IMG/VR virus record: IMGVR_UViG_3300032278_000156
Location: 1 to 20,511 of that record
Direction: 5' to 3' (one strand)
DNA length: 20,511 nt
DNA from: a virus
The notes beneath the pieces were generated by a model, which saw nothing but the letters and a program-made list of their open reading frames with translations, was not told the origin of the DNA and did no database searches. This document shows positions 1,527 to 19,550 of this stretch, in pieces. The translations under genes and the position numbers were made by a program. Position 1 is the first letter of the stretch; each line of letters opens with the position of its first letter.

Positions 1527-4500
1527 ATGCCCTGGAATGTCAGGCTTCCCGACGGAAGGGTTCGATCCTTCCCTAATAGCGTAACAGAGGAACAGGCCCA
1601 GTCGATACTGGTAAGAGATCATCGCGATCTCTTCCCTGATGCAGGCGGCGGGTTCTGGGATGCTGCGGAGTCTTCAGGTAAGAGACTTCTCTCTAACGTT
1701 GCCGCTGCCGGTGACCTGACTCTTGGATCAATACTAGATGATGAAGAGCGGTACAATCGTGGCATAAGGACCTTGGAGAGAGGAGAGGAGTGGGCGCGTG
1801 GTGCCCTTCCTGCCCCTCTTACCACAGAAGATATTTCAAAGTCCTACGAAGATGAGGGGCTTGCTTCCTCCATTGGCACCGCCGGTCAATGGGCTCTCGA
1901 AACCATGGGGCAAAGCCTCCCGTACATGGCTCCCATGTTCGGGGCATCGAAGTTTGCCGCTGGTCCCGGTGCGCGTATGGCTACCCAGGCCATGCCAGCA
2001 CTCACTCGCAAGATGGGAACAGATCTCACGCGAGCCACGTTGGGCCACGCTGCTGGCTCATTATCCATGATCCCTGCCTTCTTTGCCGACAACCTTGCGC
2101 GGCAAGTTGAAGAAGGCGCAATCACACCAGAACAGCTAAAGCCGATGAACGCCGCTATGGCGGCTCCCGCACAATCGGCAATGGAATATATCTTTGTCGC
2201 CTTGATGGGGAAGATAGGCCAAGCCCCGCAACGTGCGGCGGCTCAATCTATTTCCCAATTCATTGGCCGACAGGGCCTTAGAGCTTCCACTGAAATACCC
2301 ACCGAGATGGCGCAGACCATTCTGGAACGTGCTCAGGCTGGTCAATCTATTTCGCCTAGAGATACAGAGAATGTCAAGGAAGTCCTGTACGCAGGTCTTG
2401 CTGGTGGCGTTGCCGGTGCCGGTTTTGGTGCGGTGTCCACTGGTGCCCAGATTCCAAGTGTACTGAGGGACCAGAGAAGGCTTGAGGCAGAGACGCAGTA
2501 TCGCAAGGAAGAAGACGAATCGATCAGAAAGAACATTCAGGACGAGTCGGATGCAGTTCACTTTCGTGGTGAGGGTGATGCGGTGGAAGCCAGAAGGCTT
2601 GGCCTCCAGTCGCTTGACCCCGTGAATGCAGAGATAGAGTTGCAAACGATTGAGGAATTAAAGGGTCGCCCTGTTACGGCAGAAGATATCCATAAGGCTG
2701 CTAGTGATAGGAACATTCTTTACGATGATGATCCTGGGTTCCTTGCGTTTTCAAAGAAGATTACTGGTGTAAGTAAGATTGACGAAATGGATCCGGATGG
2801 AGGAGACGCTCAAAAGCGCCAACTCTATGGCGCGTTAACTCAGTTCTCAAGACAGCCCATACCCAGTAATTCCGGAGGCGTGAGTCTTCCGACGTGGACA
2901 GAACCGGAGTACCAAAAAGCAATTAACTATCACCGTCCAAAGAGGGCAAGGAAGGCTCGTAAGGGCAAGCCTTCCGTAAGGGGGCGTGGTCAGATACCGA
3001 TTGAGGCAGAGGGTGGAACGATTCTTGAGGCTCTAGATCTTACCTTTAGTGATGAAGATGTTCGTCTTGCATTGGACATCAAGGACGAAGCTATTCGTAG
3101 GGGTGATGCAGTATTCAAGAAGGGGAAGAAGGGACAGAAGAGACAGATAGTCTTAAGCAAAAAGAAAGGTTACGAGGAATCGGAATACAGGGAGATACTA
3201 AATCGATCAAGGGCCAGGGTAGATCCCAAGACAGGTAAGCCATCGCCAATGGTTACGAGAGAGATCGTTGCTGATGCAACTGGTAGGAAGTCCCTGACCT
3301 ACATCAATATGATAAAGAACGATATGGTTAAAAGGGGTGACGCCGGAAGAACCGGTACGCAAACGATCCCCATCGTTCTTAGTTCTGTATTCAGAAACAG
3401 GGAAGTTTTTTCCGATGAGGACAAGGGGTTTCTTGTCAGGAACGAGGACAACGAAATACTTGGTGGTAAGACCACTGTACGTGCCGCCAGAGACGAAAAG
3501 AAAAGGTTGGAGCTACGTGATACTCGCTACTTCCTCGAAAGAGACGGGAAGATCATTGGGAATCCCGATGGATATAAGCCTAGCAAGCAACGTTATGGTG
3601 TGAAGGCTGATCCCCAGGCGACGGCTAGGTCGGCAAAGAGAACTATCAAGAAACGGGAGCCGGGTGGTCCCATTACCATCAAGACGGTAAAGCCAGAGTA
3701 TGCAATCTCTAAGGAGGCAGAGACCGGGTGGAGAATTGGCGAGAGGAGATCAGATCTCTACGGTTACACAACGCCATCGGAAGTTGAGTTTTGGGGAGAC
3801 AAGGAGGTAGCTGATAAGCGGGTCAGGGAGTTGTCAAGAGACTACGCTGGTGCCTACCCCGTCGAAGAACGTATTGCCAAAACGGTTGAGGGTGAGGTCG
3901 AGGGAAGACTACCCCAGCGCATAGATACCAGAAGCCAGGAGTATTCCCCTGAAGAGATTGCCAGGAGGGAAGCTCTCCTTAGTGCGTTGACTCGTTCTCT
4001 TGCTGGATATGGCTTGAATGATATCCGCCTACGTCTTACGGAGATCTTCAAGGGCGAAGGTGGTGTTGAGCAAACGACAGACACTGAGACTGGCGCAGTA
4101 TCTACGAAGTTGAAGCCCATTCTGAGACCGGATACCGAAGGGGAATACAACGCAGCGAGGATCATAACCGTTGCAATGAATCGCTTGACTCCCGATATGA
4201 CAGCGGAAGAGCAGGCAAATGTATTGGTTGATGTAGTCAACCATGAAATCATTCATGCAATGCGAGCCCTTGATCTTTTCACGCAATCTGAGTGGAACGT
4301 TCTTCGTAAGTACGTAGAGACTACTCCGTACCCGGAGGATTCAAGTGGTAGAACTTTCTATAACGTTGCCATGGATACGTACAGGGATGATTTTGATTCA
4401 GGGCAAATGGGTCAGGATGAAATCTTTGAGGAGGCAATTGCTCAGGCATATCGTTTCCATGCCAAAAACCCAGGTAGAGTTGCGGGCACCCCCAAGACAT

Positions 4501-7500
4501 TCTTTGATCGAATCAAGAGGCTTCTTGAGAAGATCGGTAATTACATTGTCGCTAATAGTTTGACAACGAGTGAGGATATCTTTGAGGAGATTCGCACTGG
4601 TAGGATAGGAGCTAGAGAGCGTGGCGAGATAAGAACCATCAAGGATGTAGTTACGCCAGAGGGACGTAGATGGTTGGAAACAAGCTACATCGCTGGGGAT
4701 GATGAACGTAGTAAGGAATCAAGAGTTGTTGACCTAAGTGACAGGCAACTACAGGGTGCGTTTAGGTCTGCCCTTGGAACTTCCTTGCTTAAAGCTCCGC
4801 AAGAAAAAATGGCTCGTGGTCAGCTAAGAAAATACCTTCAGGATTCTGGTGTGACACTGGAAGAAATGGAATGGTCTGGTCTTAATGATTACATAGAGAG
4901 CGTTCCCGAAACCCAAAAGTCAATCCAAATCGAAGATGTCATTAAGAATGTTGTTCTTCTTAGGATTGATGAGAAGATTATTACTTCTGGGTATGAAGAG
5001 TACACCCTCCCAGGTGGTGATAACTATATGGAAACGATTATTCGGGTGGCTCCGAACTTTTCCAGTCTTCCTGAGGTCCTAGCTCTCGTAAACATAGATA
5101 GCGGTTTGGTCCAAAAGTATTGGGGCCGCACTGATGACGAAGAGTCCTACGTCGGGGTTGGGCGAAAGGCACCAACCGACTGGGCAAACCTTGAGTACGG
5201 AAAGAGTCTAGCGTTCCAAGAGGATAGTGAACTTATCAGAAGGGAAGAACGTGTCGGAGAAAGGGGAACCGAGTATCGATACGGTGGGGAATGGTACGAA
5301 TTAAGCAATGATGAGAAGAAGGTTTTTGATTGGGCATCTAGCGTTGCGTCATCGAATTATTCATTAGCATTGGATGATCGTTCAAGTCTAGGTGGGTCCG
5401 AAGATGACTGGGGAGTTCATACAGCTAAGTTGCATGCAGATGAAAACATTAGAGATACCCTAACGGAGCTACCATCTTACTTGCGCGACCTCGGTTTGGA
5501 GGGTCGTGTCTCTGCTGAGACGTTAGATGAGGCAGTCAAAGCTGCGCTAAGGAGGCAGGATGCTGAGTTCCGACAGCAACTTTACCGTGAATACAACAGA
5601 GATCCTTCCGCCATAAAGTATTTACAAGACCTGACAAAGGAGAATCCTGATCGCTTTGGTGATCCAAGGAAATCCCCCTCTGATCGGAGCGAAAATATCC
5701 TAGAGGCTACCTCTCCAGATGAAATCTCCGATGAGATAAAGGTGGCTTTTGGGAAGCTTGGTCAAGAGTTCAGGATGGTTCCAGATCGAAGGAATGATGC
5801 AGATAGAAATCTTGTCTACGATGACCCTCATTATGGAGATCGGGTTGCTCCTAACGTAGTGGTCCAGATTCGTTCAAAAGAACGTTTGATTAATGGTAAA
5901 CGCATTCTTTTCATTGAAGAGATCCAATCTAGCTTGCATCAGAAGGGGGCGGAACATGGGTATATCACTGAACCAGGGTCCGTTCTTTCGCGTGAGAAGT
6001 TAGGAATCCGTCCTATCGGTGATGGTCGTGGGTATGACTGGGAGGTGTACCGAACTGATACAGGCGATGTAGTGGATAGATACCAAGGACAGACCAGAGA
6101 AAATGCGTTGGACATTGCCTTGGAACGGCATCGTGATACGGACGAGAGAGTTCCCGATGCTCCGTTCAAGAAGACATGGGAAGCCCTTGCCCTGAAACGA
6201 ATGATTGCGCTTGCTGCGAACAAAGGTCTTGCGGGTGTGGGGTGGACTACAGGCAAGCAGCAAGATGATCGGTTTGACGCGGGACTTCGCTCAGCCGTTG
6301 ACGAAGTTTCGTGGGGTCCTGGCATTCGGGCCGGTCAAGGCGGAAGAGAAGTCACTATCTACAATGAAGGAGATGTAGTTGTAAAGCTCTCCGTAAATAA
6401 AGAGAATCGCGTTAGAGAGAAAGTACATGCCTCGATACCAGTTGGTACTCCACTGTCTGATGTTATCGGGGGGGTTGCTGCCGACAAGATTGCAGGGAAA
6501 AATGAAGGTGTAATGGGCGTGGATGCAATGATTGGAGAAAGACAGTTCTTCAAGACATTGTATGACAAGAAGCTTGCTCAGGTTGGCAACAAGGTGGGTC
6601 GTAGGTTCGATACACAAGTAGAGTACGAACCAATGGAGGTTGATTTAAGTGGAACAACAGAGAGGGTTCCTTACTTCCCCATTAATGAAGAGCTAAGAGC
6701 TTCCGTAAAGAGTCAGGGATTCAACCTCTTTGGCTCCAAGGAATCTCGCGTTGTCGATGCAACTCGTCAGCTTGGAATCTTCAGGTCTCGCCTCAAGGAA
6801 GCGATAGACAAGGCACCCGACAAGCCGATGACTCCACGTAAGGCAATTGAATTCCTTCATAAGAACGGTGTTAAGAAGGATGAAATCCTATGGTCTGGTT
6901 TGGAGGAATTTCTTGATGGCAAGGACAAGGTAGTTCTCTCTTCCTTATGGTCCGAGCTTAGACCCGTTCAGATAGGGGAGACTATTTACGAAGGTGAAAA
7001 TAGAGAGCCAACGGATGAGGAAATTTATGGCTGGCGCCAGGAATGGGCTGATGAACGACTTGGTAATGCCTCAAGTCTTATTGAAGTAACAGAGGATGAT
7101 ATTGAATGGGATGAAGATTCCGAGGATTACAATGACGGACTCGATGAAGAGGGTAGGTCGGTTGGTCATTATTATTACTTAGATTCATACTCCAGTGACC
7201 GCTTTGATAGTGAAGAACAAGCACAGGAATCGCTTCATCAACGTGTCATGGAAGAGTCTTGGGATATAGACGTACAAGATCTCATTGACGAATGGGGTGG
7301 AGGTGACGAGTACAGATCTGAGTATGGCGCTCAGCATTATGATCATCGTTTGGAGGGAGAGATTGATGATTCCTATGGAGAGATTGTATTGAAGGTGCCA
7401 GGGAGAAATGCCAGTCTTGGTCCCGCAATTCCGAATGCAATGGCGAATCATGCATTTCCAGATGAAGATGGAATGGCATGGGGAAGGTTTGATGAGCGGT

Positions 7501-10500
7501 TCCGTTCCCCGCCTCCCCCTCTTCATTTTGTAGAGACCTACGAAGAAGCGATATCTGAATTGGAAAAGCTCGGCTTGCCGGATCCCCTGGAGTTCTGGGG
7601 TTTTGATGACAATTCCGATTACATCTCTCTAGTAAATAGCGGCGCTGCCGCATACCAGTCCGGCGGTGAGGAAGCGATGAAGATCTTCTTCATCGAAGAG
7701 ATCCAGTCGGATATGGAATCTGTTGTAACGGCTGCTGCGCGCCGGGGGGAGTTGCTTTCTAGAGCAGATGAAACGACGATTAAACGTCTCAAGGAATTTG
7801 CTTCACTTCTTATTAAAGGGGAAGGTTTACTCAAGCGTAACGAGCCAAGGACATATCACACGGACGTAGCCTCCAATTTTGAAACAACTGAAATGGTCAG
7901 GGATCGATTTGGTCGTAATGCTGCGGCGGACTCTGCCATTGGCAGAGACTCATGGTTGGGGAAAAGGTTCTTCGCTCCAGAAGACGTTACCAAGGAAGCA
8001 TACGTTGGGCGTATTGAATCCCTTATCAACCAACTGTCAGAGATCCTAGAGTTAGATGATGTAGAGAAACTCAATTACTTGAGATCTACTGTCTCCTGGG
8101 GGCTGACCACCAGACCACCGAGCTACACCACGAGATGGGCGTCATCCCCCAGACCATTAAGCCTTCAGGAGGAGGCGGACAACGCCGCGCAGCCGAGGAG
8201 GACATTAGCCCTAAGGAGAGAAGCTAGAACATTACGTGAACTCAGGAATGAAGTACTTAGATACATTAATGATCTCAATGCGCGTCAAGCCGATATTCCG
8301 TTCAGGGAATCGATCTACATGATTATGTTCAAAAGATTGGTGGCAGAGGCAGTGGCGCGTGGGCATAACGAGATAGCTTGGACCACTGCGGACATACAGG
8401 TCAATAGATGGAGTGATAGTTCTAGGAAATTCTACGAATTACTGTATGACAAAAAGCTACCAGCATACGCAAGAACACTAGGCAAAAGATTTGGAGCGAA
8501 GGTACGAAAGATATCCATACCGCTTGATGATTATGCAGACGAGGGATATGTAACTCCAAAAAGAGAGGTTCAGGTAGCAGAGAAAATCCTTTCCGAGGAA
8601 GAGGTAGAGTCAAGAAAGGAAGAGCTTCCCTTATTTGGTGACGTAGAAGTCTTTCCCAGGGTTGGTTACGTCTTGGAGGAAGTGAGGAATGAAGGTAGTC
8701 GCCGGATGCCACGACCAGATAGAACATTCCCATACGAAGACACCAAGAACATTACTTACTCTACTAAGGAATCTGCGAACCTTGCTGCTTCAAGAATAAA
8801 TGAATATCTCAAGAGCCTTGAAGACAATACTACCGAAGTATGGTCAATGACAATCCCGCCAGCCATGGCCGAGTCCGTGAGGGACCAGGGGTTTTCATTG
8901 TTTGGAACAAAGGAATCCAAGTTCATTATTCCTTCCGGAAGAAGTCGGGAGTTCAATCCCAATTCACGAACGGAAGTTAGTCCCCCAACCCCTATCGAAG
9001 ATGCCTTGACTCCGAGTAATAAATTTACTCCGATTGGTACTGTCCCTCGCATCAACACTGCCGCAAGTGAACGCGCCCAACAGATCGCCCGTGGAGAAAT
9101 TGAGGGCGAGAAGATGTCGGAGAACGATTGGAAGCCCTTCCTTCTTTCCAACAACAAGGCATCCATCTTTAGTCCTGCCCTCAGAAAGAGGGCAGGAGAG
9201 ACGATAAAGATCCCAACCAACCTAACGTTCTTTGATGTCGTCAAGTCGGTTCTCAACTTTGAAAAATGGGGAGGTATCGATGGTCTTCTGACTTGGGCAC
9301 GGCAGAAGATGGTGGATAAGTATGCTCGCATTGCCGAGATAGAGCAGCTTGTTGTTGATGAAATGAGAAAGGAAGGGGCTTCCGAGAAGGAGATACTCAG
9401 GAAGCTCATGGCGGATCAGAGTGCAGCGGCTGCTGCGTACCGATCAGATCGTGCTGCCGGTATCCTCCAGGCAGCATTGATGCGTGGTATCCCGATGCTC
9501 GTTAACGGACGAACGACCGTTGTGGATATGGATATTCAAGTCATAGATCCAAAGACGGGTGCTGTGTCAATGGGTAAGGGTGGGTTCACCCAGATATTCA
9601 GGCCGCTCCTCCGCAATCATTTGAACAAGAATCTCTTGGAAGACTGGGGGCTTTACAGGCTGGCTCTCAGGGAGAGGCGGTTCCTCGCCGAGGAAAGGGA
9701 CACCCAGCTAACGGGTCCCGAGATAAAGGAGATAATCGACACCGTTCACAATGCTGCAAAGGAATCCAGTAAAGGCAACCCGCTTCATGAAGAAGCAAAG
9801 ATCATGATGACTGTAGACGGAAACTTCAATAAGTGGAATGAAGGGTTTGTTAATTACTTGATTGATACGGGTGTAGTCAGCAAGGCAATGGGTGATCAGT
9901 GGATGGAGACGGTTGATTACATTCCTTTCTACAGGCAATGGGATGAAGAGGCTAGCGAGAACGAGAATTCATTGATTGAAAATATTCTAGGGAAACTAAG
10001 GGGGCAGAGCCCAAAGGTTCCCAAGACAATGATTGGTTCTCTTACGGGTATAAAGCTTCCGAAGAGGGCCAAGGGTGGCGACGCTCCTATTCTTGATCCC
10101 TTCACTACCATTCTACAGAACTCACTTTCTGCGATCACCAGCGGGCTCAAGAACGAAGCTGGACAAAAGGTCATGAAGGATGCTGAATATGTAAAGATGG
10201 CAAGGCGTCTTGGCATTGATGGTGAGTACGATTCATCCGGATTGGATTTAGCAAGCATCCATACAATTAGAGAAGATGGTGTAGAAGTAGACTATCTCGT
10301 CAGTGATCCTCTTCTTCATGATTCTCTCGTTGGTTTTACTGACGGCAAGCTTCCCTACCTCTCCATGATTGCTGCACCATCTACGTTTCTTAGGGAGATG
10401 GTCACTCGCTCTCCCGACTTCATCGTTGCCAATCTAATGCGTGATACGGTGTCGGCATGGGTCACGAGTGGATCCGACTTCACTCCGTTCAGTGATACGT

Positions 10501-11990
10501 TGAGGCACATGGCCGGGTCAACCAAGGCACCTAGCTTTGAAGCACTAAGCCGCGCTGGTCTCAACATGGGTTATGACTTTGGTAGGGACATGAGGTCTGC
10601 CCGTAATGAGGTCATGAAGCAGTTCCGTAAAGAAGGAACGCTTGAAGACGAAAGAAACATTGCTTGGAAAAGCGTAATGAATGTGTGGGATTGGGCCGGT
10701 GACGTAACGACCCGCTCCGACATGGCTACACGTCAAGCCGTTTACGAAGATGTACTCAAGAGACTTACTCCGGTGTACGGTGCCGCAGTTGCAGAGGTCG
10801 AGGCTGAATTCCAGGCGCAAGAGATCATTAACTTCTCAAGGAGAGGGAACAGCAACATCGCGCGTTACGTTACTGCGGCTGTACCTTTCCTGAATGCAAG
10901 AATTCAGGGGCTCGATGTTCTATACCGCGCAGGTACGGGTAGGTACAGTGCGAACGTAGACAAGACGATGACCAATGAGGCACGTCTCATTTTCACAAAC
11001 AGGATGATGACTCTTGCAGGTCTATCTATCCTTTACTGGATGTTCGTTCATGACGATGATGAGTACAGAAACGCACGGCCCGAGGTAAGGCAAGACAATA
11101 TAATCCTGCCTCGATTTGGTGGACTACTTGGCAAGTTGTTACCGAACAAGATTCCAAAACCATTTGAAGTTGGATTGATTGCTTGGACAATTCCCGAAAC
11201 ATTTGCTGAATTGATTTCAGGTAACCAAGACCAGAGGCAAACCGTTAATGCACTGAAGCGTGGGTTGATGACAACTCTTAGTTTCAATCCAGTGCCACAA
11301 GCAGTAAGACCTTTGTACGAAGCTTTCAACAACAAGTCTTACTTCACCGGAAGGAACATTGTCCCGTACTTCCAGACAGAGCTTAGCCCTGAGCTTCAAA
11401 CACAACCCGGCACGAACGTAATCGCCCAATCCTTGGGGTCTATGTTCAATGTCTCCCCAACGAAAATAGAATACGTTCTTCGTGGGTATAGTGGGACCAT
11501 TGGATCTTATATCTTGTTTGCTTCCGATGAAGCCCTGAGACCGATGAGTAACTACCCCTCGACTCCTAAGCTGCTTGGTAACCCAGAGAAGATGCCGATG
11601 TTCAGGAGGTTCTTCCAAGGTCCAGAGGGCGGTGGGAAGTTGGCTGAGTTCTATGAATTCAGGGAGGCTTCCGAAGCAATCACAAATGATATACGTGCTT
11701 TAAGAAAGCAAGGTCAGGCTAAAAAAGCAGCAGACTTGGTTACCAGTAACCTGGGTATCATTAAGACTGTATCGAGAAGAAAGGGACTTGATAAGACATT
11801 GAAGAACTTGAGGCAGCAGAAGAATATGATTATGTTCTCAAGGCATTTAACACCGGAGCAAAAACAACATGCCCTCAACGAGATTGAGAGGAAGCAGACG
11901 CAAGTCCTCTCAGGCATCACGGACATCAGGGAAAGGGCAGACCTCCCGGTCGAACTACCTTTCCCGCTCTCCATCTTCGAGAGGAGGTAA
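1527..11990 (+). CDS. Giant polyvalent virion-associated protein, 3487 aa
   Basis: A single uninterrupted frame, starting at the ATG three bases after the previous stop. Regions in order: a short N-terminal segment (LPDGRVRSF near residue 6); Gly/Ala-rich amphipathic helices at about 110-310; a basic region; a zincin motif HEIIH at residues 906-910 with a downstream EEAIAQAY helix that could supply a further ligand; two related modules at about 1064-1738 and 1739-2462, each with a WSGL motif and an EEIQS motif; a long helical region; and a C-terminal part (about 2962-3330, beginning SPDFIVANLMRD) that resembles LPD38. One strongly hydrophobic segment lies near 3160-3175. Proteins of this kind in podoviruses are usually internal virion proteins ejected into the host; that role is inferred. 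I see no RNA polymerase motifs. Residues about 2188-2231 look out of frame (see findings). Confidence 0.9.
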   Translation: MPWNVRLPDGRVRSFPNSVTEEQAQSILVRDHRDLFPDAGGGFWDAAESSGKRLLSNVAAAGDLTLGSILDDEERYNRGIRTLERGEEWARGALPAPLTTEDISKSYEDEGLASSIGTAGQWALETMGQSLPYMAPMFGASKFAAGPGARMATQAMPALTRKMGTDLTRATLGHAAGSLSMIPAFFADNLARQVEEGAITPEQLKPMNAAMAAPAQSAMEYIFVALMGKIGQAPQRAAAQSISQFIGRQGLRASTEIPTEMAQTILERAQAGQSISPRDTENVKEVLYAGLAGGVAGAGFGAVSTGAQIPSVLRDQRRLEAETQYRKEEDESIRKNIQDESDAVHFRGEGDAVEARRLGLQSLDPVNAEIELQTIEELKGRPVTAEDIHKAASDRNILYDDDPGFLAFSKKITGVSKIDEMDPDGGDAQKRQLYGALTQFSRQPIPSNSGGVSLPTWTEPEYQKAINYHRPKRARKARKGKPSVRGRGQIPIEAEGGTILEALDLTFSDEDVRLALDIKDEAIRRGDAVFKKGKKGQKRQIVLSKKKGYEESEYREILNRSRARVDPKTGKPSPMVTREIVADATGRKSLTYINMIKNDMVKRGDAGRTGTQTIPIVLSSVFRNREVFSDEDKGFLVRNEDNEILGGKTTVRAARDEKKRLELRDTRYFLERDGKIIGNPDGYKPSKQRYGVKADPQATARSAKRTIKKREPGGPITIKTVKPEYAISKEAETGWRIGERRSDLYGYTTPSEVEFWGDKEVADKRVRELSRDYAGAYPVEERIAKTVEGEVEGRLPQRIDTRSQEYSPEEIARREALLSALTRSLAGYGLNDIRLRLTEIFKGEGGVEQTTDTETGAVSTKLKPILRPDTEGEYNAARIITVAMNRLTPDMTAEEQANVLVDVVNHEIIHAMRALDLFTQSEWNVLRKYVETTPYPEDSSGRTFYNVAMDTYRDDFDSGQMGQDEIFEEAIAQAYRFHAKNPGRVAGTPKTFFDRIKRLLEKIGNYIVANSLTTSEDIFEEIRTGRIGARERGEIRTIKDVVTPEGRRWLETSYIAGDDERSKESRVVDLSDRQLQGAFRSALGTSLLKAPQEKMARGQLRKYLQDSGVTLEEMEWSGLNDYIESVPETQKSIQIEDVIKNVVLLRIDEKIITSGYEEYTLPGGDNYMETIIRVAPNFSSLPEVLALVNIDSGLVQKYWGRTDDEESYVGVGRKAPTDWANLEYGKSLAFQEDSELIRREERVGERGTEYRYGGEWYELSNDEKKVFDWASSVASSNYSLALDDRSSLGGSEDDWGVHTAKLHADENIRDTLTELPSYLRDLGLEGRVSAETLDEAVKAALRRQDAEFRQQLYREYNRDPSAIKYLQDLTKENPDRFGDPRKSPSDRSENILEATSPDEISDEIKVAFGKLGQEFRMVPDRRNDADRNLVYDDPHYGDRVAPNVVVQIRSKERLINGKRILFIEEIQSSLHQKGAEHGYITEPGSVLSREKLGIRPIGDGRGYDWEVYRTDTGDVVDRYQGQTRENALDIALERHRDTDERVPDAPFKKTWEALALKRMIALAANKGLAGVGWTTGKQQDDRFDAGLRSAVDEVSWGPGIRAGQGGREVTIYNEGDVVVKLSVNKENRVREKVHASIPVGTPLSDVIGGVAADKIAGKNEGVMGVDAMIGERQFFKTLYDKKLAQVGNKVGRRFDTQVEYEPMEVDLSGTTERVPYFPINEELRASVKSQGFNLFGSKESRVVDATRQLGIFRSRLKEAIDKAPDKPMTPRKAIEFLHKNGVKKDEILWSGLEEFLDGKDKVVLSSLWSELRPVQIGETIYEGENREPTDEEIYGWRQEWADERLGNASSLIEVTEDDIEWDEDSEDYNDGLDEEGRSVGHYYYLDSYSSDRFDSEEQAQESLHQRVMEESWDIDVQDLIDEWGGGDEYRSEYGAQHYDHRLEGEIDDSYGEIVLKVPGRNASLGPAIPNAMANHAFPDEDGMAWGRFDERFRSPPPPLHFVETYEEAISELEKLGLPDPLEFWGFDDNSDYISLVNSGAAAYQSGGEEAMKIFFIEEIQSDMESVVTAAARRGELLSRADETTIKRLKEFASLLIKGEGLLKRNEPRTYHTDVASNFETTEMVRDRFGRNAAADSAIGRDSWLGKRFFAPEDVTKEAYVGRIESLINQLSEILELDDVEKLNYLRSTVSWGLTTRPPSYTTRWASSPRPLSLQEEADNAAQPRRTLALRREARTLRELRNEVLRYINDLNARQADIPFRESIYMIMFKRLVAEAVARGHNEIAWTTADIQVNRWSDSSRKFYELLYDKKLPAYARTLGKRFGAKVRKISIPLDDYADEGYVTPKREVQVAEKILSEEEVESRKEELPLFGDVEVFPRVGYVLEEVRNEGSRRMPRPDRTFPYEDTKNITYSTKESANLAASRINEYLKSLEDNTTEVWSMTIPPAMAESVRDQGFSLFGTKESKFIIPSGRSREFNPNSRTEVSPPTPIEDALTPSNKFTPIGTVPRINTAASERAQQIARGEIEGEKMSENDWKPFLLSNNKASIFSPALRKRAGETIKIPTNLTFFDVVKSVLNFEKWGGIDGLLTWARQKMVDKYARIAEIEQLVVDEMRKEGASEKEILRKLMADQSAAAAAYRSDRAAGILQAALMRGIPMLVNGRTTVVDMDIQVIDPKTGAVSMGKGGFTQIFRPLLRNHLNKNLLEDWGLYRLALRERRFLAEERDTQLTGPEIKEIIDTVHNAAKESSKGNPLHEEAKIMMTVDGNFNKWNEGFVNYLIDTGVVSKAMGDQWMETVDYIPFYRQWDEEASENENSLIENILGKLRGQSPKVPKTMIGSLTGIKLPKRAKGGDAPILDPFTTILQNSLSAITSGLKNEAGQKVMKDAEYVKMARRLGIDGEYDSSGLDLASIHTIREDGVEVDYLVSDPLLHDSLVGFTDGKLPYLSMIAAPSTFLREMVTRSPDFIVANLMRDTVSAWVTSGSDFTPFSDTLRHMAGSTKAPSFEALSRAGLNMGYDFGRDMRSARNEVMKQFRKEGTLEDERNIAWKSVMNVWDWAGDVTTRSDMATRQAVYEDVLKRLTPVYGAAVAEVEAEFQAQEIINFSRRGNSNIARYVTAAVPFLNARIQGLDVLYRAGTGRYSANVDKTMTNEARLIFTNRMMTLAGLSILYWMFVHDDDEYRNARPEVRQDNIILPRFGGLLGKLLPNKIPKPFEVGLIAWTIPETFAELISGNQDQRQTVNALKRGLMTTLSFNPVPQAVRPLYEAFNNKSYFTGRNIVPYFQTELSPELQTQPGTNVIAQSLGSMFNVSPTKIEYVLRGYSGTIGSYILFASDEALRPMSNYPSTPKLLGNPEKMPMFRRFFQGPEGGGKLAEFYEFREASEAITNDIRALRKQGQAKKAADLVTSNLGIIKTVSRRKGLDKTLKNLRQQKNMIMFSRHLTPEQKQHALNEIERKQTQVLSGITDIRERADLPVELPFPLSIFERR

Positions 11991-13266: not shown

Positions 13267-13523
13267 GTGAAAAGAAGCTGACGAACCTGAAGATCCTCTT
13301 GAAGAAGAATCCTCCGAGCGAACCGGTAGCGGTGATGCTCAGAACAAACAGTGAGGTTTCCGATTGGCTGAGAAAACTTTTTGAACTTCGCAGTTCGGGT
13401 GAGATAAGCATGACGTTCTCTTCTATTGCTGAAGAGCTTTCTGAATTCCTAGAACGAAACGTTAAGCCACGTCAAGTGAGTGAGGCATTCAGAGAATGGC
13501 AACGAGAAAAAAAACGAAACTGA
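13263..13523 (+). CDS. Small helix-turn-helix-like protein, 86 aa
   Basis: The GTG start shares bases with the Rz1 stop codon, implying translational coupling. The protein is charged and helical; residues about 52-79 (FSSIAEELSEFLERNVKPRQVSEAF) have the spacing of a winged or plain helix-turn-helix, so DNA binding is possible. In T7-like gene order a small terminase subunit often lies near the lysis genes, but nothing specific supports that here. It overlaps the phosphoesterase gene by 28 bases across an A8 run, where a -1 slip would fuse the two products. Function not recognised. Confidence 0.65.
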   Translation: MSEKKLTNLKILLKKNPPSEPVAVMLRTNSEVSDWLRKLFELRSSGEISMTFSSIAEELSEFLERNVKPRQVSEAFREWQREKKRN

Positions 13524-14581
13524 AAACGATTGCAGAACTTGAGAAAGCCGCTGGTGCCAAAGATGAAGAGCGTTCTTCTGTTCGACGTGAGCTTGCCCTC
13601 GACCGTGCGAAGCGGAGCGAGGGGGAGTGGAAGAAGCTCGCGCTTCTCGCCAAGAAGGAACTGGAGGTTGCCGAAGGCAGACTAGATGTTCTCCTGGCAT
13701 CAGAGCAGCCACGCTCACCCATCATTTTCAAACCGGCCAAGCGTCAACTAAAGACACAATCCATTCCCATCATGATTGCTTCCGACTGGCACGTCGAAGA
13801 GGAGGTCGGAGAGGAGACGGCTCCGGGTGCCCTGTACACGCTCGATGTAGCCGAAGAGAGGATCTACAACTTCGGTAAGAACTCTCTTACGTTGGTGAAC
13901 GCTGCCCGTGCCCATACCCAAGTGAAGGAAGGGATCCTGCTCTTGCTGGGGGACCATTACACTGGACACATTCATGAGGAACTTCATGAAACAACCAGCC
14001 TCTCGCCGATTGAATCGATCCTCTGGTTAAGGGAAAGAATCAGTGCATTGATTCATTACCTTCAAGACAATGGGGATTTTGAAAAGCTCACCGTCGTCTG
14101 CAAGATAGGGAATCATTCGCGCACAACTCTGAAACCCAGGATTGCTACAGCGCACAAGCATTCATTTGAATGGTTGCTGTACCACGTCCTTGCCCTTGAG
14201 TTTGAAAAGGACAAGACCATCGAGTGGGTCATCGAACCCACCTATCACACGATGCTGGATGTTTACGGCATGAAGCTGCGCGTTCACCATGGCGATTGGA
14301 GTGGTCGATACCAAGGGGGCATCGGAGGTTTGGCTGTCCCTCTTTCCAAGTCGCACTTGAAGTGGAACCAAGACCCGCACCTCCGAGCCGACCGAGACAT
14401 CATCGGTCATTGGCATTCGTTTTCCGAAAGCACTGGCAAAGTCATCATTAACGGGTCATTGATTGGCCCCAACAAATTTGGAATCAAGGTACAATCCCAT
14501 GAGAGGCCGCTGCAAAGTTTCTCGCTCATCAGTGAAAAATTTAGCGACGAAACCATCCGCGCTCCCGTCTTCGTTGAGTGA
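13496..14581 (+). CDS. Calcineurin-like metallophosphoesterase, 361 aa
   Basis: All five metal-site blocks of the family are present in order: Asp97-x-His99 (SDWH), Gly-Asp153-His (LLLGDHY), Asn206-His207 (GNHS), His264-His265-Gly-Asp (HHGD) and Gly-His305-x-His307 (GHWH). The enzyme should cleave phosphodiesters or phosphomonoesters with two metal ions; the substrate is not predictable from these motifs. Residues 1-90 form a basic, coiled-coil-like extension outside the catalytic fold. The ATG at 13496 lies inside the previous gene with only a weak purine-rich leader, so coupling or frameshift fusion with that gene is possible. Relatives occur in many phages beside structural or packaging genes, with unsettled roles. 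Confidence 0.85.
   Translation: MATRKKTKLKTIAELEKAAGAKDEERSSVRRELALDRAKRSEGEWKKLALLAKKELEVAEGRLDVLLASEQPRSPIIFKPAKRQLKTQSIPIMIASDWHVEEEVGEETAPGALYTLDVAEERIYNFGKNSLTLVNAARAHTQVKEGILLLLGDHYTGHIHEELHETTSLSPIESILWLRERISALIHYLQDNGDFEKLTVVCKIGNHSRTTLKPRIATAHKHSFEWLLYHVLALEFEKDKTIEWVIEPTYHTMLDVYGMKLRVHHGDWSGRYQGGIGGLAVPLSKSHLKWNQDPHLRADRDIIGHWHSFSESTGKVIINGSLIGPNKFGIKVQSHERPLQSFSLISEKFSDETIRAPVFVE
13507..13514 (+). other. A8 run in a gene overlap (possible -1 slippery site)
   Basis: Eight consecutive A's are read as GAA AAA AAA by the 86-aa gene. A -1 slip there enters the phosphoesterase frame (ACG AAA CTG) before the upstream stop at 13521-13523. The heptamer A-AAA-AAA is a known efficient bacterial slip type. 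I see no obvious stimulatory hairpin just downstream. Confidence 0.45.
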
Positions 14582-14963
14582 CGAAGAACTCGCTCGCAAG
14601 TGGGCGAAGGAGACCAAGAGACTCGTACTATCGATGCTCGGTAAGGCATTGTTCGCAGGGCATGAACCTGCTCACCCCATCAAGATTAGATGGGTGGCGA
14701 TGGACGACGACGAATGGGGAGATGCTTCGCTAAAGAAGTACAAGTCTGGCGAAACGTTTCTGATACGGATGAATAAAGACTTGCTAAACCCTAACGTTCA
14801 TTCCAGGGATCTGGCCTTGTTCGTTTTCATTCATGAGTTGGCTCACTGCATGGCGTGGGCAGCGAATGAGACTGCGGAGGAGTCTCGCACTCGTGTTCAT
14901 GGAGATCACGGGGCGATTTGGTCGGCGGAACATGGAGTTCTTTGGGAGTCTCTATTCGATTAG
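14499..14963 (+). CDS. SprT/WLM-like zinc metallopeptidase, about 154 aa
   Basis: HELAH at residues 112-116 within a hydrophobic helix (LFVFIHELAHCMAW) is a zincin active site, and the later HGDHGAIW (134-141) offers the third zinc ligand in the manner of SprT/WLM-type peptidases seen in phages. The preceding segment with FLIRMNKDLL fits the family's beta-strand. Start is uncertain: ATG at 14499 has AAGG nine bases upstream and overlaps the phosphoesterase end by 83 bases; GTG at 14532 or TTG at 14574 are alternatives, and homology-like sequence begins only around the latter. It could act on DNA-bound or capsid proteins; the target is not shown. Its 3' end is overlapped by an opposite-strand gene. 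Confidence 0.75.
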   Translation: MRGRCKVSRSSVKNLATKPSALPSSLSDEELARKWAKETKRLVLSMLGKALFAGHEPAHPIKIRWVAMDDDEWGDASLKKYKSGETFLIRMNKDLLNPNVHSRDLALFVFIHELAHCMAWAANETAEESRTRVHGDHGAIWSAEHGVLWESLFD

Positions 14964-15078
14964 GCTTCGACACGCAATCAGTTGGCTCATCCTGATGGTC
15001 CCACCATGAGCCGGTACAGTACTTACACAGCAGGCTGTCTTCAAATTGGTGGCCCATGGCTTTAATCGAATACTTCAT
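14827..15078 (-). CDS. Small zinc-finger-like protein, about 83 aa
   Basis: The N-terminal half has CKYC at 18-21, His28-Gln29 and Cys35 in a pattern common in tiny phage proteins (C-x2-C ... HQ ... C), suggesting one zinc site. The second half is Pro/His/Glu-rich and is encoded antisense to the metallopeptidase active site, so it may be an unselected read-through tail. ATG at 15078 is chosen because a purine-rich stretch (GAGAAAGAAG) precedes it; ATG at 15057 would avoid overlap with the previous gene. It is the last gene of the leftward operon. Function unknown. Confidence 0.5.
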   Translation of the reverse strand: MKYSIKAMGHQFEDSLLCKYCTGSWWDHQDEPTDCVSKPNRIETPKELHVPPTKSPRDLHEHECETPPQSHSLPTPCSEPTHE

Positions 15079-15274
15079 CTTCTTTCTCTGTATCAAGACA
15101 GCCCTCCCCTCCCAGTCTCATGAGTTCCTTTTCGATCCCATCCCTGGCGATCTTTGCGGAACTGGTCCCCATCTTCTCGGCTAGTTCTTTAGCTAGTTCC
15201 TTGAACCGAACCGGAACACGAATGTTCCAGTAGGTTCCGGACTCACTCAGTTTTTCGTAGTGTCTAATCGTCAT
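15062..15274 (-). CDS. Ribbon-helix-helix-like DNA-binding protein, 70 aa
   Basis: A short beta-strand-like segment (TYWNIRVPVRF, about residues 13-23) is followed by two helices (KELAKELAEKMG and SSAKIARDGIEKELMRL). This is the arrangement of the MetJ/Arc fold, whose dimers insert the strand into the DNA major groove. A role as an autoregulator of the leftward operon is possible but not shown. The ATG overlaps the end of the preceding gene by 11 bases and has AAGGT upstream. The acidic C-terminus ends in EKEDEVFD. Confidence 0.65.
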   Translation of the reverse strand: MTIRHYEKLSESGTYWNIRVPVRFKELAKELAEKMGTSSAKIARDGIEKELMRLGGEGCLDTEKEDEVFD

Positions 15275-15599
15275 CGTCTACCTTGTACAGTTCAGAAACG
15301 ATTGACCATCCAACCGCTGCATAGCCAGCGATGTCCTGCCAAGAATCCTTGTGCGTTGGACTTTCCATAAGCCGCCCTATCTTTGTGAGAATCATTGCGA
15401 TCACCACATCTTTTTCACTGTAGAACTCACGGCTTGTATCTACGGAACTCCACAGACCAGCGATCCTCATATAGTTAACTGCGGGTCTTCCATACTTTTC
15501 CATTCTTTCACTTGTAATCGTGTTAGCTACGTCTTCCAGAAACGTTTTCATTGTATGCTCAGCTTTCTCGTTCAATTTTTTCTGAGTCATCTCATGCAT
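15264..15599 (-). CDS. DUF6378-like phage protein, 111 aa
   Basis: The pattern 'ERMEKYGRPAVNYMRIAGLW ... DVVIAMILTKIGRL ... DSWQDIAGYAAVGW' matches what I recall of the DUF6378 family, common in phage early regions and of unknown function; some all-alpha relatives look like MazG-type folds, but no such activity is claimed here. ATG at 15599 is chosen over earlier starts because AAGGAG lies six bases upstream. It overlaps the previous gene's stop by eight bases, so translational coupling is likely. Confidence 0.75.
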   Translation of the reverse strand: MHEMTQKKLNEKAEHTMKTFLEDVANTITSERMEKYGRPAVNYMRIAGLWSSVDTSREFYSEKDVVIAMILTKIGRLMESPTHKDSWQDIAGYAAVGWSIVSELYKVDDDD

Positions 15600-16062
15600 T
15601 TTTAACTCCTTCGACTTCATCAATAAAGGACTGACACAGGGTCTCAAACTTTTGTCTTGCTCCCATGTCTTCCTTTAATTCGGAACGTGATTCAATGTCG
15701 CATGCCTTGCGGAGCAGGCGTGCCGTATGCTGTTCTTCGTTTTCACCCCATACATCTCGTTCCTCTGGGTCCGTTTGCATGTATTCATGAATCCATTCTT
15801 GGAACCTAGATGACCTACAAAGCATTCCTGCCTGTTGAATGAGGGCATCGGATTCGCTTGCGTCCTTTGTCTTTACCGGCTGGTCGTCGTCGCTGAGTTG
15901 AACCATGGCACACTGGTACCGGGTACCTACCCAGGAAGAGAACAGATCTTGCGGAACATCATTTGGGTGCAGCACCAGGGTTAGATGGTATCCATCCTTG
16001 GTTTGCCTGAACGAAGTTTTAACTGCTTCAAAGTTCAGCGTGTAGTTTTGCATTCCATCCAT
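15592..16062 (-). CDS. Conserved phage protein of unknown function, 156 aa
   Basis: No enzyme motif is visible. Residues near 26-55 (YHLTLVLHPNDVP then GTRYQCAMVQL) resemble, from memory, a family in recombination operons of phages of Proteobacteria, with the pattern 'LHPDDvP...LGTRyqvaLVql'. A later helical part contains a CRSSRFQEWI segment and ACDIESRSELK. The start may be ATG at 16062 or 16053; both overlap the HNH gene's end. Lying between an HNH nuclease and a DUF6378 gene, it probably belongs to the recombination/replication set. Confidence 0.7.
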   Translation of the reverse strand: MDGMQNYTLNFEAVKTSFRQTKDGYHLTLVLHPNDVPQDLFSSWVGTRYQCAMVQLSDDDQPVKTKDASESDALIQQAGMLCRSSRFQEWIHEYMQTDPEERDVWGENEEQHTARLLRKACDIESRSELKEDMGARQKFETLCQSFIDEVEGVKNA

Positions 16063-16316
16063 AACTTATGACTTACCTTTGCCCAATCCTCTGGATCGAT
16101 TCGTTTCTTTATCCAGAACAATTCTTCATCACCAGTCTGGTGACATTGCATGTGGCAGAAACGACAAAGAGGGACTGCCCATTGGTCACCAGTTTTCCTG
16201 GCGAAACCGGACAGTCCCCCTTCGGCGTGTCGTAGATGATGTGCATCATCAGCAGGGCGTTTACAAATCAAGCATGGGTTCTCCCGTACTGACTTGAGAT
16301 ACGCCTTGCTTCTCAC
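16035..16316 (-). CDS. Small HNH-type nuclease-like protein, 93 aa
   Basis: The zinc-binding frame is clear: Cys15-x2-Cys18, the HNH-like DAHH at 24-27, and PLCRFCHMQCH at 49-59. The sequence resembles the DUF968/Ref-like recombination-associated HNH group ('PClicgrpad.HHl...KtgDqwavPLCr.cH'). It would nick or cut DNA using one metal ion, plausibly processing recombination intermediates beside the ERF-like protein. GTG at 16316 is the best start: AAGGAG sits seven bases upstream, and the preceding stop ends one base before it. An in-frame TTG at 16334 lies upstream of that ribosome-binding site and is unlikely. Confidence 0.75.
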   Translation of the reverse strand: MRSKAYLKSVRENPCLICKRPADDAHHLRHAEGGLSGFARKTGDQWAVPLCRFCHMQCHQTGDEELFWIKKRIDPEDWAKVSHKLWMECKTTR

Positions 16317-16317
16317 A

Positions 16318-16614
16318 TCAAAACTCCTTGTCAACCCAATCCTGTTGGGGGGCTCGGGGGGTTGAGCCTTCGGGCTTCTGGTACTTCTCGGAGTCGAGCT
16401 TCAGGTATACGTAGTCTTCCCCGCTCTTTTCCGATGTACCCTTCCAACCAGCGATGTATACCATTGCAGGTCCGTCCCCCTTTGATGCTGCGTCTGCAAG
16501 GTTCTTGATGAACCGTGCATCCACGGGAACTTCAGCCCTGAAATCAGGATGTTTCGGGGATGCCTTTCGGTTGGAGTTGAGATATCCGACATTAGGTTTC
16601 TTAGCTTGCGCCAT
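16318..16614 (-). CDS. Small SSB-like or recombination-accessory protein, 98 aa
   Basis: The sequence begins KKPNVGYLNSNRK, then HPDFRAEVPVD, a strand-rich middle (AMVYIAGWKGTSEKSGEDYVYLKL) and a disordered Pro-rich tail ending in the acidic-aromatic DWVDKEF. This resembles, from memory, a frequent small phage family placed beside recombinases and suspected to be OB-fold ssDNA-binding; an acidic-aromatic C-terminus is also typical of SSBs. The ATG has AAAGGA upstream and overlaps the ERF gene's end by 14 bases. Strand content and location support, but do not prove, ssDNA binding. Confidence 0.55.
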   Translation of the reverse strand: MAQAKKPNVGYLNSNRKASPKHPDFRAEVPVDARFIKNLADAASKGDGPAMVYIAGWKGTSEKSGEDYVYLKLDSEKYQKPEGSTPRAPQQDWVDKEF

Positions 16615-17380
16615 TGTCTGATCCTTTCATTAGTTTCTTGATTTCTTCCCTTCGGTCATTGAATTCAGAACGAATAGCTGAGTAGTTATTCTTTCCGAAG
16701 CTCTTGTATTCCTTCTTGTTCCGGTCGAAGACCTCCCACAATTCCTTCAGGCTGTCAATGTCCTGTATGTATCCGAGTTCAGGAATCTCCACTGCATCCA
16801 ATGCTTCGACTGCCATCTCAACTGCGTTTTTAGTTGTCTTCTTCCTGCGTCCATTGCCGCTGCTCTTTCTCTTGGGCTTGGGCTTGGGCTCTGCTTCCTC
16901 TGCTTCCTCTGCCTCCTTGGCTTCCTTGAGTTCCTCTTCCTTTTGCCTCAACTTTTCTTCGGTGTCGCGTAGCTGTGCTTCGTGTTGGCTACGCATGCCA
17001 TCATGGTCTTCACCGATCTGAGGCTTGCCGAGGCTCATCAGCGTATAGCGTTTGTTATAGGAGACGCCCGCCCCGCCATGCTGGTGGTCTTCTGTAACGA
17101 GCATCGTCATTGAAGACGATTCGCTCAAGCCCGTTTCGATGTGGGTAAACTTTGTCGTGATTACATCGAAGACACCGTTGTTCCCTGAAGCAATCGATTG
17201 ACGAATGAGGAATCCCTTTTCCTCTGCGATGGGTTCCCACTCCATCAAGATGTTTTCAAGGGTTGCGTACTTGTAGTTGAACCCTGTCTCAGTCTTTCCG
17301 GGCCAAGTTAACGCCGTCTTGAACTCAGCTAGTGCCTTCAGGAATTCAGTGTTCTCTCGATGTTCATCTTCACTTGCCAT
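16601..17380 (-). CDS. erf: ERF-like single-strand annealing recombinase, 259 aa
   Basis: The N-terminal 130 residues carry the ERF superfamily pattern: an acidic/hydrophobic helix (FLKALAEFKTAL), then NYKYATLENIL at 35-45, a strand pair with VITTKFTHIETGLSE, and GAGVSYNKRYTLMSLG. ERF proteins form rings that anneal complementary single strands. Residues about 131-185 are a Glu/Lys/Ala coiled-coil-like stretch and a basic Lys/Pro/Arg linker encoded by short DNA repeats; the C-terminal 70 residues are a helical domain of unknown role. AAGGAG lies seven bases before the ATG, which overlaps the nuclease gene by 11 bases. Pairing with the Cas4/RecB-like nuclease suggests an end-resection and annealing system. 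Confidence 0.85.
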   Translation of the reverse strand: MASEDEHRENTEFLKALAEFKTALTWPGKTETGFNYKYATLENILMEWEPIAEEKGFLIRQSIASGNNGVFDVITTKFTHIETGLSESSSMTMLVTEDHQHGGAGVSYNKRYTLMSLGKPQIGEDHDGMRSQHEAQLRDTEEKLRQKEEELKEAKEAEEAEEAEPKPKPKRKSSGNGRRKKTTKNAVEMAVEALDAVEIPELGYIQDIDSLKELWEVFDRNKKEYKSFGKNNYSAIRSEFNDRREEIKKLMKGSDNGAS

Positions 17381-18257
17381 TTAGATACTCCTTATTCTGG
17401 TCGCAGAATCTTGCGACTTCACAAAAGTTTTCGCATCGGGTTCTCTCGCCCTCCCTCCGTTCGATCATTGCCTTGGACATCTTTCGTTCTTCGATCCATT
17501 CGGTCGCCTCTTCTTCTGAGGCAAGGACACGCAGTGCGCGAGATGCATCGGGCCGCTTCACTGCAAAGGTTGCTGGCTTCTCCCACATTTCCTCTGCCGT
17601 GCAAGGGGGGATCTCGTCTGTGAATTCAAGCATCAAGTCCGCATCCATGTGAAGGTTCAACCGTTCCTCAAAGAATGCTTTCCTCAGTTCGGGTGACCAC
17701 ATGGCAATCTCTACCGTGATGCCGGGGGTCTTCGGGTAGCTCCTGTCACGTTGGGCTGACCGCCATGACCAATCACGCAGGATGGCGTACACCTCAAGGC
17801 GTCCCACTATGGCATGGTCCGGGTCCGTCTTTTCAAATAGATGGGCGTACAGGTTCAACTGCTGCGACCAGCTTGATTCCGGTGAGTGGCTAAGGGCGTA
17901 GACTGAGGTGAACTTGTAGTCCCCTATGGTGAACGTGCCGTCTTCGTTCTGATACGTCACATCCATAGCGCCGCTGACATCGATTCCGTTTAGATCTAGG
18001 TGGACTCTCTGCTCAACGGAATATCCACCCGTGTGCCGTTCTGCGATGGAATGGATTGCAGTCCCAACCAACCGAAAGATGTTCTCATACACGTCATCCT
18101 CGACCTGCTCAGCGTGCTCTGCGCGCAGGATTCGTATGCGTGGAGAATCCATTAGCTGCGTAACCGTGAAGTCAGAGCCTTCGCTGTCATAGTGGGGGGC
18201 GTTGGCGAACTCAACCAGGGAAGCGGGAGCGCCATGTTTGTTCGTAACAATTGCCAT
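17370..18257 (-). CDS. Cas4/RecB-like PD-(D/E)XK nuclease with four-Cys cluster, 295 aa
   Basis: The nuclease core shows GTAIHSIAE (His69, Glu73 region), GAMDVTY with Asp99, and GDYKF with Asp113 and Lys115, then WSQQLNLYAHL, the family's QxxxY motif. Cys219 (PPCTAEEMW) and Cys275, Cys279, Cys285 near the C-terminus match the Cas4/AddB-type 4Fe-4S cluster. The expected activity is resection of DNA ends for the ERF-like partner. I chose ATG at 18257 because related phage proteins begin with 'M-x-IVTNKHxxP'; an in-frame ATG at 18272 adds five residues but has no ribosome-binding site. It is the first firmly supported gene of the leftward operon. Confidence 0.85.
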   Translation of the reverse strand: MAIVTNKHGAPASLVEFANAPHYDSEGSDFTVTQLMDSPRIRILRAEHAEQVEDDVYENIFRLVGTAIHSIAERHTGGYSVEQRVHLDLNGIDVSGAMDVTYQNEDGTFTIGDYKFTSVYALSHSPESSWSQQLNLYAHLFEKTDPDHAIVGRLEVYAILRDWSWRSAQRDRSYPKTPGITVEIAMWSPELRKAFFEERLNLHMDADLMLEFTDEIPPCTAEEMWEKPATFAVKRPDASRALRVLASEEEATEWIEERKMSKAMIERREGERTRCENFCEVARFCDQNKEYLNGK

Positions 18258-18323
18258 TGCTCGCTCGATCATACGCCACGATACGTAACGGATGCAAGGG
18301 AAGATTAAGTAATTTATTAATAA

Positions 18324-18521
18324 TCAAGTATCTAAATCATTTGTGACGTACACAAAGATGTGTTCTCCTTCCGGCACATCCGGCACAACCGGCACAACCA
18401 TGGGGATAGCCCCCACTTGTTCCACTTGCTCCAGTTGCTCACCTAAATAGCCAGGATTTACCACGGCAATGTTGGCTATTAAATGAGTTGTGACGTAATG
18501 GCAGGGCTTGTCAATTGACAC
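18324..18521 (-). CDS. Doubtful small ORF with Val-Val-Pro repeats, 65 aa
   Basis: This GTG-initiated frame starts in the first operator-like palindrome and runs leftward toward the nuclease gene. It contains LEQVEQV and a VVPVVPDVP stretch made by three 9-bp units. No ribosome-binding site of quality is seen and no family is recognised. It could be a short leader peptide gene of the leftward operon, or an accident of repetitive noncoding DNA; I lean slightly to the latter. Confidence 0.25.
   Translation of the reverse strand: MSIDKPCHYVTTHLIANIAVVNPGYLGEQLEQVEQVGAIPMVVPVVPDVPEGEHIFVYVTNDLDT
18371..18397. repeat. Three tandem 9-bp CCGGCACAW units
   Basis: CCGGCACAT is followed by two copies of CCGGCACAA. 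They lie within the doubtful 65-aa ORF, where they encode Pro-Val-Val type triplets on the minus strand. Confidence 0.85.
18509..18520. promoter_or_regulatory. Operator-like palindrome, copy 1
   Basis: TGTCAATTGACA is a perfect 12-bp palindrome. An identical copy lies 20 bp to the right, so two dimers could bind on nearly the same face of the DNA. Both arms include TTGACA, the consensus -35 sequence, which could link repressor binding with promoter occlusion. Confidence 0.6.
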
Positions 18522-18528
18522 ACGCTCA

Positions 18529-18540
18529 TGTCAATTGACA
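18529..18540. promoter_or_regulatory. Operator-like palindrome, copy 2
   Basis: A second perfect TGTCAATTGACA, with its centre exactly 20 bp from that of copy 1 and an 8-bp spacer between them. The location in the divergent region suggests an operator for a phage regulator, possibly the ribbon-helix-helix protein encoded at 15062-15274 or one outside the window. Confidence 0.6.
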
Positions 18541-18613
18541 TCTAAACAATTTCATAATCAACTCACGGCTCCCGTTGGAGAACCGAACCCAACCGCGCCA
18601 ACAATGACAACAT

Positions 18614-18642
18614 TGCCAGGGTAAAAGCGAATGGCCCTGGCA
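18614..18642. repeat. Hairpin with 8-bp perfect stem
   Basis: TGCCAGGG and CCCTGGCA are perfectly complementary across a 13-base loop. T-rich sequence follows on the plus strand (TTCGAGTTTCTAATTCATTT), so a weak rightward terminator or a leader structure is possible; the T-run is interrupted. Confidence 0.45.
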
Positions 18643-18718
18643 TTCGAGTTTCTAATTCATTTAGGTGTGAGGGGTACCCCTGAAATCGCTGCAATCGTGC
18701 AATCGCTCCATCGAATTT

Positions 18719-18745
18719 TCGCAGCTTGCTTCCACAAGCTTGCGA
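18719..18745 (+). repeat. Hairpin just upstream of the RusA gene
   Basis: TCGCAGCTTG pairs with CAAGCTTGCGA with one bulged base and a 6-base loop; TTTCGTTC follows on the plus strand. It could be a weak attenuator-like terminator in the RusA leader. No stronger evidence is visible. Confidence 0.4.
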
Positions 18746-18784
18746 TTTCGTTCTAAAAATAGTATGAAGCCAGAGGGGGTGGAG

Positions 18785-19404: not shown

Positions 19405-19415
19405 CCCTCTCGGTC
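19389..19415 (+). terminator. Hairpin with stop codon in its loop, possible terminator
   Basis: GACCGAGAGGG and CCCTCTCGGTC form a perfect 11-bp stem around ATTGA, whose TGA is the stop of the preceding gene. Flanking A19388 and T19416 can add a pair. The following TCATTGGG is a poor T-run, so termination may be weak or factor-assisted; mRNA 3'-end protection is an alternative. Confidence 0.6.
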
Positions 19416-19536
19416 TCATTGGGTACCCAATAGAGCAATGGCAAGCTCAACAAGAATCTACGTCCCCGACATCGCCGTGTCAACACGAACTTCTTCGGCC
19501 ATAAGAAGTTCATCCCCCCCTACTAAACGTTATACA

Positions 19537-19547
19537 TTTAACGACAT
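19537..19547 (+). repeat. TTTAACGACAT repeat, copy A
   Basis: TTTAACGACAT recurs identically 60 bases downstream. With CGTTAAA at 19551-19557 it also makes an inverted repeat around ACATGTA. A partial inverted element (CGTTA) lies 11 bases to the left at 19528-19532. Confidence 0.75.
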
Positions 19548-19550
19548 GTA

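Follow-up and report, generated by a model that had tools for sequence, protein, structure and literature searches.

Two diverged copies of a predicted GNAT-like module in tandem within a giant polyvalent-type phage protein

The closest described systems to the protein examined here are the polyvalent proteins (Iyer et al. 2017, PMC5512222), which likewise combine great length in a phage protein, a zincin-type motif, an LPD38 domain and several effector-like domains. Their MPTase and PBECR domains are on record with more than one copy per polypeptide, and it has been proposed that the zincin domains process them (PMC5512222). Two RimI-like families of GNAT N-acetyltransferases are also found in polyvalent proteins. 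A second precedent is the GNAT-type gene of the T7 gp13/SIO1 type that podoviruses carry among their virion structural genes; it lies beside internal virion proteins and has been discussed in comparison to T7 gp13 and morphogenesis (PMC6775973). We analyzed the virus record IMGVR_UViG_3300032278_000156, a stretch of 20,511 bases referred to below as the window, where a single open frame (1527–11990, plus strand, as are all features of this protein) encodes a polyvalent-type protein of 3487 amino acids (aa). The region 4716–8912 of this frame, for which a tandem duplication had been predicted from the DNA letters, holds two copies of what we name the EIQSD module, a family defined here from about 200 loci.

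The two halves of the region, module A (aa 1064–1738; 4716–6740) and module B (aa 1739–2462; 6741–8912), are by their sequences tandem copies of one module, co-linear and strongly diverged. The original prediction held that the same motifs follow each other in both halves, and each of them was located as described: KESRVVD at residues 1063 and 1738, WSGL at 1116 and 1789, FIEEIQS at 1462 and 2055, APF or IPF at 1545 and 2257, WTT at 1573 and 2285, YDKKL at 1679 and 2307 and LFG at 1734 and 2458 in A and B, respectively. DNA identity between the copies, predicted to be low, is negligible, with a best blastn expectation value (E) of 0.013. At the protein level, phmmer aligned A with B at a whole-sequence E of 1.5e-15 through four segments, the last one not significant, and BLASTP found 43% identity across the first 61 residues. 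The profile alignment proposed along with the prediction, run with hhalign as the family profile of A against B, returned a probability of 99.6 and an E of 4.4e-24, but for the N-terminal 76 residues only.

A family profile built from other phage contigs only, with the window left out, matched both copies over the full length from the helical N-terminal part to the terminal GxxLF. Module A scored 236.8 bits (segments at E 2.4e-10, 1.4e-4 and 4.5e-60) and module B 126.0 bits (segments, in model order, at E 1.1e-18, 5e-4, 6.5e-11 and 7.6e-11). The reversed sequence of B scored −3.1, 1000 shuffled versions of B stayed at or below 6.8, and parts of the giant protein taken wholly outside the modules gave −1 to −3. 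In module A the profile covers the helical N-terminal part with its GVxxEExxWSGL motif (4758–4943; E 2.4e-10) and the predicted GNAT-like core (5772–6731; beta3-beta4 with EEIQS, alpha3, beta5, alpha4 and beta6-beta7; E 4.5e-60). In module B it covers the FIEEIQSD strand (7677–7712), the alpha3-beta5 segment IPF...WTT..RW (8229–8417; E 6.5e-11), whose best match is in L184, and the stretch from alpha4 to the end, YDKKL...GKRFGAKV...GFSLFG (8445–8903; E 7.6e-11). The strand MAWGRFDER of B (7473–7499) was recovered as the equivalent of the family strand LAHvRfndR with its two arginines (R..R), since 2 of 2000 shuffles scored higher (p about 0.001).

The predicted module of about 700 residues thus stands as two co-linear copies but not as a uniform repeat, because the conserved unit is a domain of about 540 columns with large variable inserts. 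The linker from WTT to YDK is long in A and short in B, and in B the EIQSD is followed by a long insert. Small inserts built as strand-strand-helix, which show a W/Y..F..eeA..A pattern, are present at aa 1503–1538, 1878–1909 and 2379–2430 (window about 6033–6140, 7158–7253 and 8661–8816); by eye they seem to sit at different core loops in A, B and relatives and to explain some of the variation in length.

Used as a single query against viral contigs, neither module A nor module B returned relatives. A degenerate EEIQSDWHQ pattern, on the other hand, recovered at least 120 viral stretches, and a genome scan added 79 further loci, mostly from uncultivated bacteria of many phyla. Together, at least 203 open frames carry a module, a few duplicates included (for example, L132 and L133 are identical). 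The family is rare in a set of 50,697 phage records, where it was found in 5, all annotated as hypothetical protein. Culturable phages that carry a solo member are Pelagibacter phage HTVC028P, Dolichospermum phage Dfl-JY45 and Pseudoalteromonas phage PH1. Compact proteins of about 440–590 aa with a solo EIQSD module (L169–L203) were found in contigs of Gamma- and Betaproteobacteria; a neighbor of one (L180) is a histidine kinase, and the neighbors of another (L195) include FtsZ-like, PcfJ-like, WYL and NYN proteins.

The original prediction regarded EIQSD-type segments as known from phage polyvalent proteins, and this was not borne out. A Pfam search over 73 family members returned no family model and two weak single-member matches, so no LPD or PBECR model covers the module, and a full-text literature search for the EIQSD motif string found no relevant paper. 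With neither a Pfam model nor a literature trace, the family seems undescribed rather than known, and in this it differs from the described polyvalent domains. A sequence search of the PDB likewise found no relative of the module. The sole PHROG match of the family is phrog_7348, labelled endolysin, which 71 of the 73 members match (module A of the window at its positions 1804–1954); this label most likely derives from other domains of the 2564-position profile and not from the EIQSD module.

The conserved core residues of the family comprise H, N, H, R, R, EEIQSDWHQ, APF..W and YD. Because the loci were found through EEIQSDW(HQ) patterns, these very residues are bound to look invariant to some degree. 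Outside the search pattern, the conserved positions are H, N, R, R, NYRE, APF..W and YD, and their conservation in the family is high (H and one R 100%, N 96%, the other R 93%, YD 97–100%). Module A keeps 36 of 45 conserved positions. Module B keeps 21 of the 27 that could be aligned, the other 18 not being alignable, and it retains EEIQSD.

To examine the fold, module A was modelled with AlphaFold2 (AF2) from a 71-row alignment. The mean predicted local distance difference test score (pLDDT) was 70.9, and the helical N-terminal part (pLDDT about 90) and the core were confident. MAFFT misaligns the NYRE strand of A on account of its long insert, and splitting rows into fragments was no remedy; the model is therefore untrustworthy outside these two parts. 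The second model is of the compact relative L180, chosen in preference to B, whose inserts would probably blur a fold search; it has a pLDDT of 91.6 and a core of the order beta-beta-beta-alpha-alpha-beta-alpha-beta-beta. From beta3 on, the two models agree on beta-beta-alpha(-alpha)-beta-alpha-beta-beta, which is the element order of GNAT folds.

When the L180 model was compared with the PDB by Foldseek, about 45 of the best 50 rows were GNAT proteins as judged by name, with probabilities up to 0.90. They comprise the C-terminal domain of ICL2, which we take to be GNAT-like, AtaT, KacT, SSAT, HAT1 and Eis2, and many are repeats of ICL2 or SSAT. GNAT proteins are the nearest solved structures, although none of the matches is significant by itself. 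AtaT and KacT are small proteins of toxin-antitoxin systems, whereas the EIQSD fold lies inside a giant phage protein and no sequence similarity to them was detected. In a viral structure library, L180 matched 21 phage proteins at E below 0.001, mostly large and uncharacterized, with N-acyltransferases among the next matches. A weak hhalign match to an alignment derived from PF00583 pairs alpha3-beta5 in the expected register. These models suggest that the shape of the EIQSD module resembles that of acyl-transferring enzymes.

Three observations bear on the setting of the modules. First, the backbone of the giant protein is, on sequence grounds, of the polyvalent type described earlier (PMC5512222): the only Pfam domain of the 3487-aa protein that passes the cut-off is LPD38 near the C-terminal end (aa 3177–3338; 11055–11540; PF18857, E 7.8e-29), and PHROG matches are also present in the frame. 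Ahead of the modules, a HEIIH motif (aa 906–910; 4242–4256) marks by its pattern a candidate zincin metallopeptidase site; a Pfam search of the N-terminal part that bears it (aa 1–1063) gave no match. Second, solo modules adjoin genes for head, scaffold, portal, terminase, tail and internal virion proteins (L054, L061, L004), which points to a virion protein and makes it plausible that, as had been suggested alongside a two-lobed assembly, two related effectors are delivered together.

Third, the corresponding region has a different content in the nearest relative found (L234). The conserved C-terminal backbone (aa 2490–3487; 8994–11987) is 56% identical in L234, which also has DNA matches over later genes of the window. 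No EIQSD module was found in the 837 residues that precede its backbone, these being part of the upstream region, with modules further upstream possible, and the same residues show a sub-threshold ART-PolyVal match. A 98-bp patch at the edge of the conserved backbone (9043–9140) shares 90% DNA identity with L234 and encodes a nearly invariant peptide; it was considered as a recombination anchor and rejected, as its codon identity is not exceptional (permutation p 0.22).

The module edges themselves are marked by a short motif. KES[RK] occurs at exactly three sites in the giant protein, all of them module edges, a number reached by 3 of 2000 shuffles: KESR at the front edge of A (aa 1063–1066; 4713–4724), KESR between A and B (aa 1738–1741; 6738–6749) and KESK at the rear edge of B (aa 2462–2465; 8910–8921). 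L234 has two such sites (reached by 7 of 2000 shuffles). The motif was dismissed as a general feature of the family, since KES was found at 0 of 209 other module ends.

We propose that the region is the effector-cassette part of a polyvalent virion protein and that the two GNAT-like modules in it are diverged members of a phage family not described so far, a reading to which we give slightly better than even chances. Modules A and B would then probably be exchangeable tools delivered into the host. In this proposal, two EIQSD modules, each with a helical N-terminal part and a putative GNAT-like core, would lie back to back between the N-terminal part with the zincin motif and the LPD38 backbone. 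The giant protein would travel in the virion and enter the host together with the DNA. There the modules would work at an early stage of infection, whether still in place or cut free near the KES[RK] linkers by the putative HEIIH peptidase of the same protein. Such cleavage is a reasonable idea given the processing role proposed for zincins in polyvalent proteins. Each module may bind a host macromolecule or place an acyl-type group on it, and A and B may have diverged towards different targets. We consider doubtful the more far-reaching version, according to which this is an undescribed family of GNAT-fold enzymes with an active site of its own (H/N/R/R and EEIQSD) in place of the acyl-CoA loop, serving as a virion-delivered effector in many uncultivated phages, with two subtypes fused here as exchangeable cassettes whose KES[RK] linkers would be cut by the zincin of the protein itself after delivery.

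A number of observations weigh against the effector reading. Both copies have lost conserved residues: A has other residues in place of the conserved D, W and H (EIQSS for EIQSD, L for W and Q for the core H), and B lacks the WHQ..GY that follows EEIQSD in the family. No PDB match of L180 by Foldseek reached E 0.001, the best being 0.06, and Foldseek with the whole model of A returned essentially noise. The hhalign match to the PF00583-derived alignment has an E of 0.065, and 1 of 20 shuffled controls scored anomalously high for reasons unexplained. The loop that binds the acyl-CoA pyrophosphate, [QR]xxGx[GA], is absent from both A and B and was found in only 23 of 204 modules; among the GNAT controls, with the full sequence of each searched, 29 of 33 have it. 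Moreover, the structure models cover A and L180, while B was placed by its sequence. Packaging of the giant protein in the virion is inferred from its homologues, and KESR as a cleavage site is a conjecture.

No Pfam GNAT model matched any of the 73 members, and the module differs from GNAT proteins further in its additional helical N-terminal part, its inserts and its own conserved H/N/R/R and EEIQSD. Since the fold and profile matches are weak and the canonical acyl-CoA motif is missing, we call the module GNAT-like and not a GNAT.

How the pair arose has two competing answers. The first, to which we assign an even chance, is separate acquisition, with mosaic cassettes that came to share a polypeptide through exchange within a variable stretch. 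The core subtypes of A and B differ: the core of A has its best match in L063 at 88 bits, with B ranking about 270th, and the core of B has its best match in L184 at 46 bits, with A ranking about 130th. In addition, where the window has the modules, L234 carries domains unrelated to them, joined to the backbone that both proteins conserve. On the other hand, trees of A and B have long branches and do not separate the two histories, and for the best-conserved stretch of DNA at the edge, conservation of the protein is a sufficient explanation.

The second answer, tandem duplication of an ancestral module in place, after which the second copy diverged to a specialized or partly inactive lobe, was the one put first in the original prediction, which also allowed for separate acquisition; we regard it as a serious possibility that falls somewhat short of even chances. 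Among about 200 loci, the N-terminal part of A ranks second for that of B and vice versa, with L075 first in both cases, and clade tests with A and B held as one clade did not reject it (approximately unbiased test, p-AU 0.963 and 0.449). Duplication within a protein is supported elsewhere (L002 copies, 98%; L026 copies, 0.91), and in L132 two modules follow each other directly, the second one being degenerate. Against this stand the preference of the two cores for other members and the short-linker form of B, which it has in common with L184, L180, L124 and L123, while A is of the long-linker form. Of the duplication claim, then, the two full-length, diverged tandem copies stand, and their origin in place is a possibility: kinship is favored by the N-terminal parts and not by the cores, and the clade tests exclude neither course.

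Two modules in one polypeptide were found in four other proteins among the 203 frames (L026, L002, L048 and L132, with L133 identical to the last). A further candidate, L138, was rejected on reading of its sequence, which showed one module broken into two matches. The copies are roughly 430–440 residues apart in L026, L002 and L048 and directly adjacent in L132, as in the window. Judging from these proteins, the tandem arrangement is rare but recurrent, and the count is a lower bound because many frames are cut by contig ends. L026 also carries a GGDEF domain (aa 2594–2683), and an ART-PolyVal domain lies between the modules of L048 (aa 731–846). The 5004-aa frames of L132 and L133 come from metagenome bins of Acidobacteria and Patescibacteria; as identical frames in different phyla, at least one of them is probably binned wrongly.

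The main alternative to an effector function is that the modules play a structural role, as suggested for the GNAT gene of T7 gp13 type (PMC6775973); for the modules we consider this unlikely. In the precedent a GNAT gene adjoins internal virion proteins, and the solo members of the family are inside the structural operon. The missing acyl-CoA motif and the loss of conserved residues from both A and B would also agree with a structural part. The gp13-type GNAT (SIO1 pc40) is a separate gene and serves here as a precedent from the literature. However, conservation throughout the family extends to polar residues that the search pattern did not cover, which resembles an active site more than a scaffold, and compact solo versions occur in bacterial contigs where the few neighbors checked include no evident phage structural gene. 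Moreover, L234 has no modules beside its backbone, suggesting that the particle may be able to do without them. That the A/B repeat reflects a chance ordering of short motifs is virtually untenable in spite of the low and patchy identity between the copies, as the profile scores are far above those of the reversed, shuffled and neighboring-sequence controls.

Downstream of the giant frame, replication and recombination genes occupy 13496–20509 of the window. They include an exonuclease (phrog_284) on the plus strand, an Erf-like annealing protein (phrog_2324) and an exonuclease (phrog_2139) on the minus strand, and a primase/helicase at the end of the window.

The EIQSD module is thus present in at least about 200 phage and prophage loci, for which no family name, Pfam or PDB relative or literature trace was found. 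The GNAT-like reading would provide the first testable hypothesis for its function. The tandem pair of the window, taken together with the different domains on the same backbone in its nearest relative, is a tangible example of putative effectors being turned over like cassettes within one phage polypeptide.

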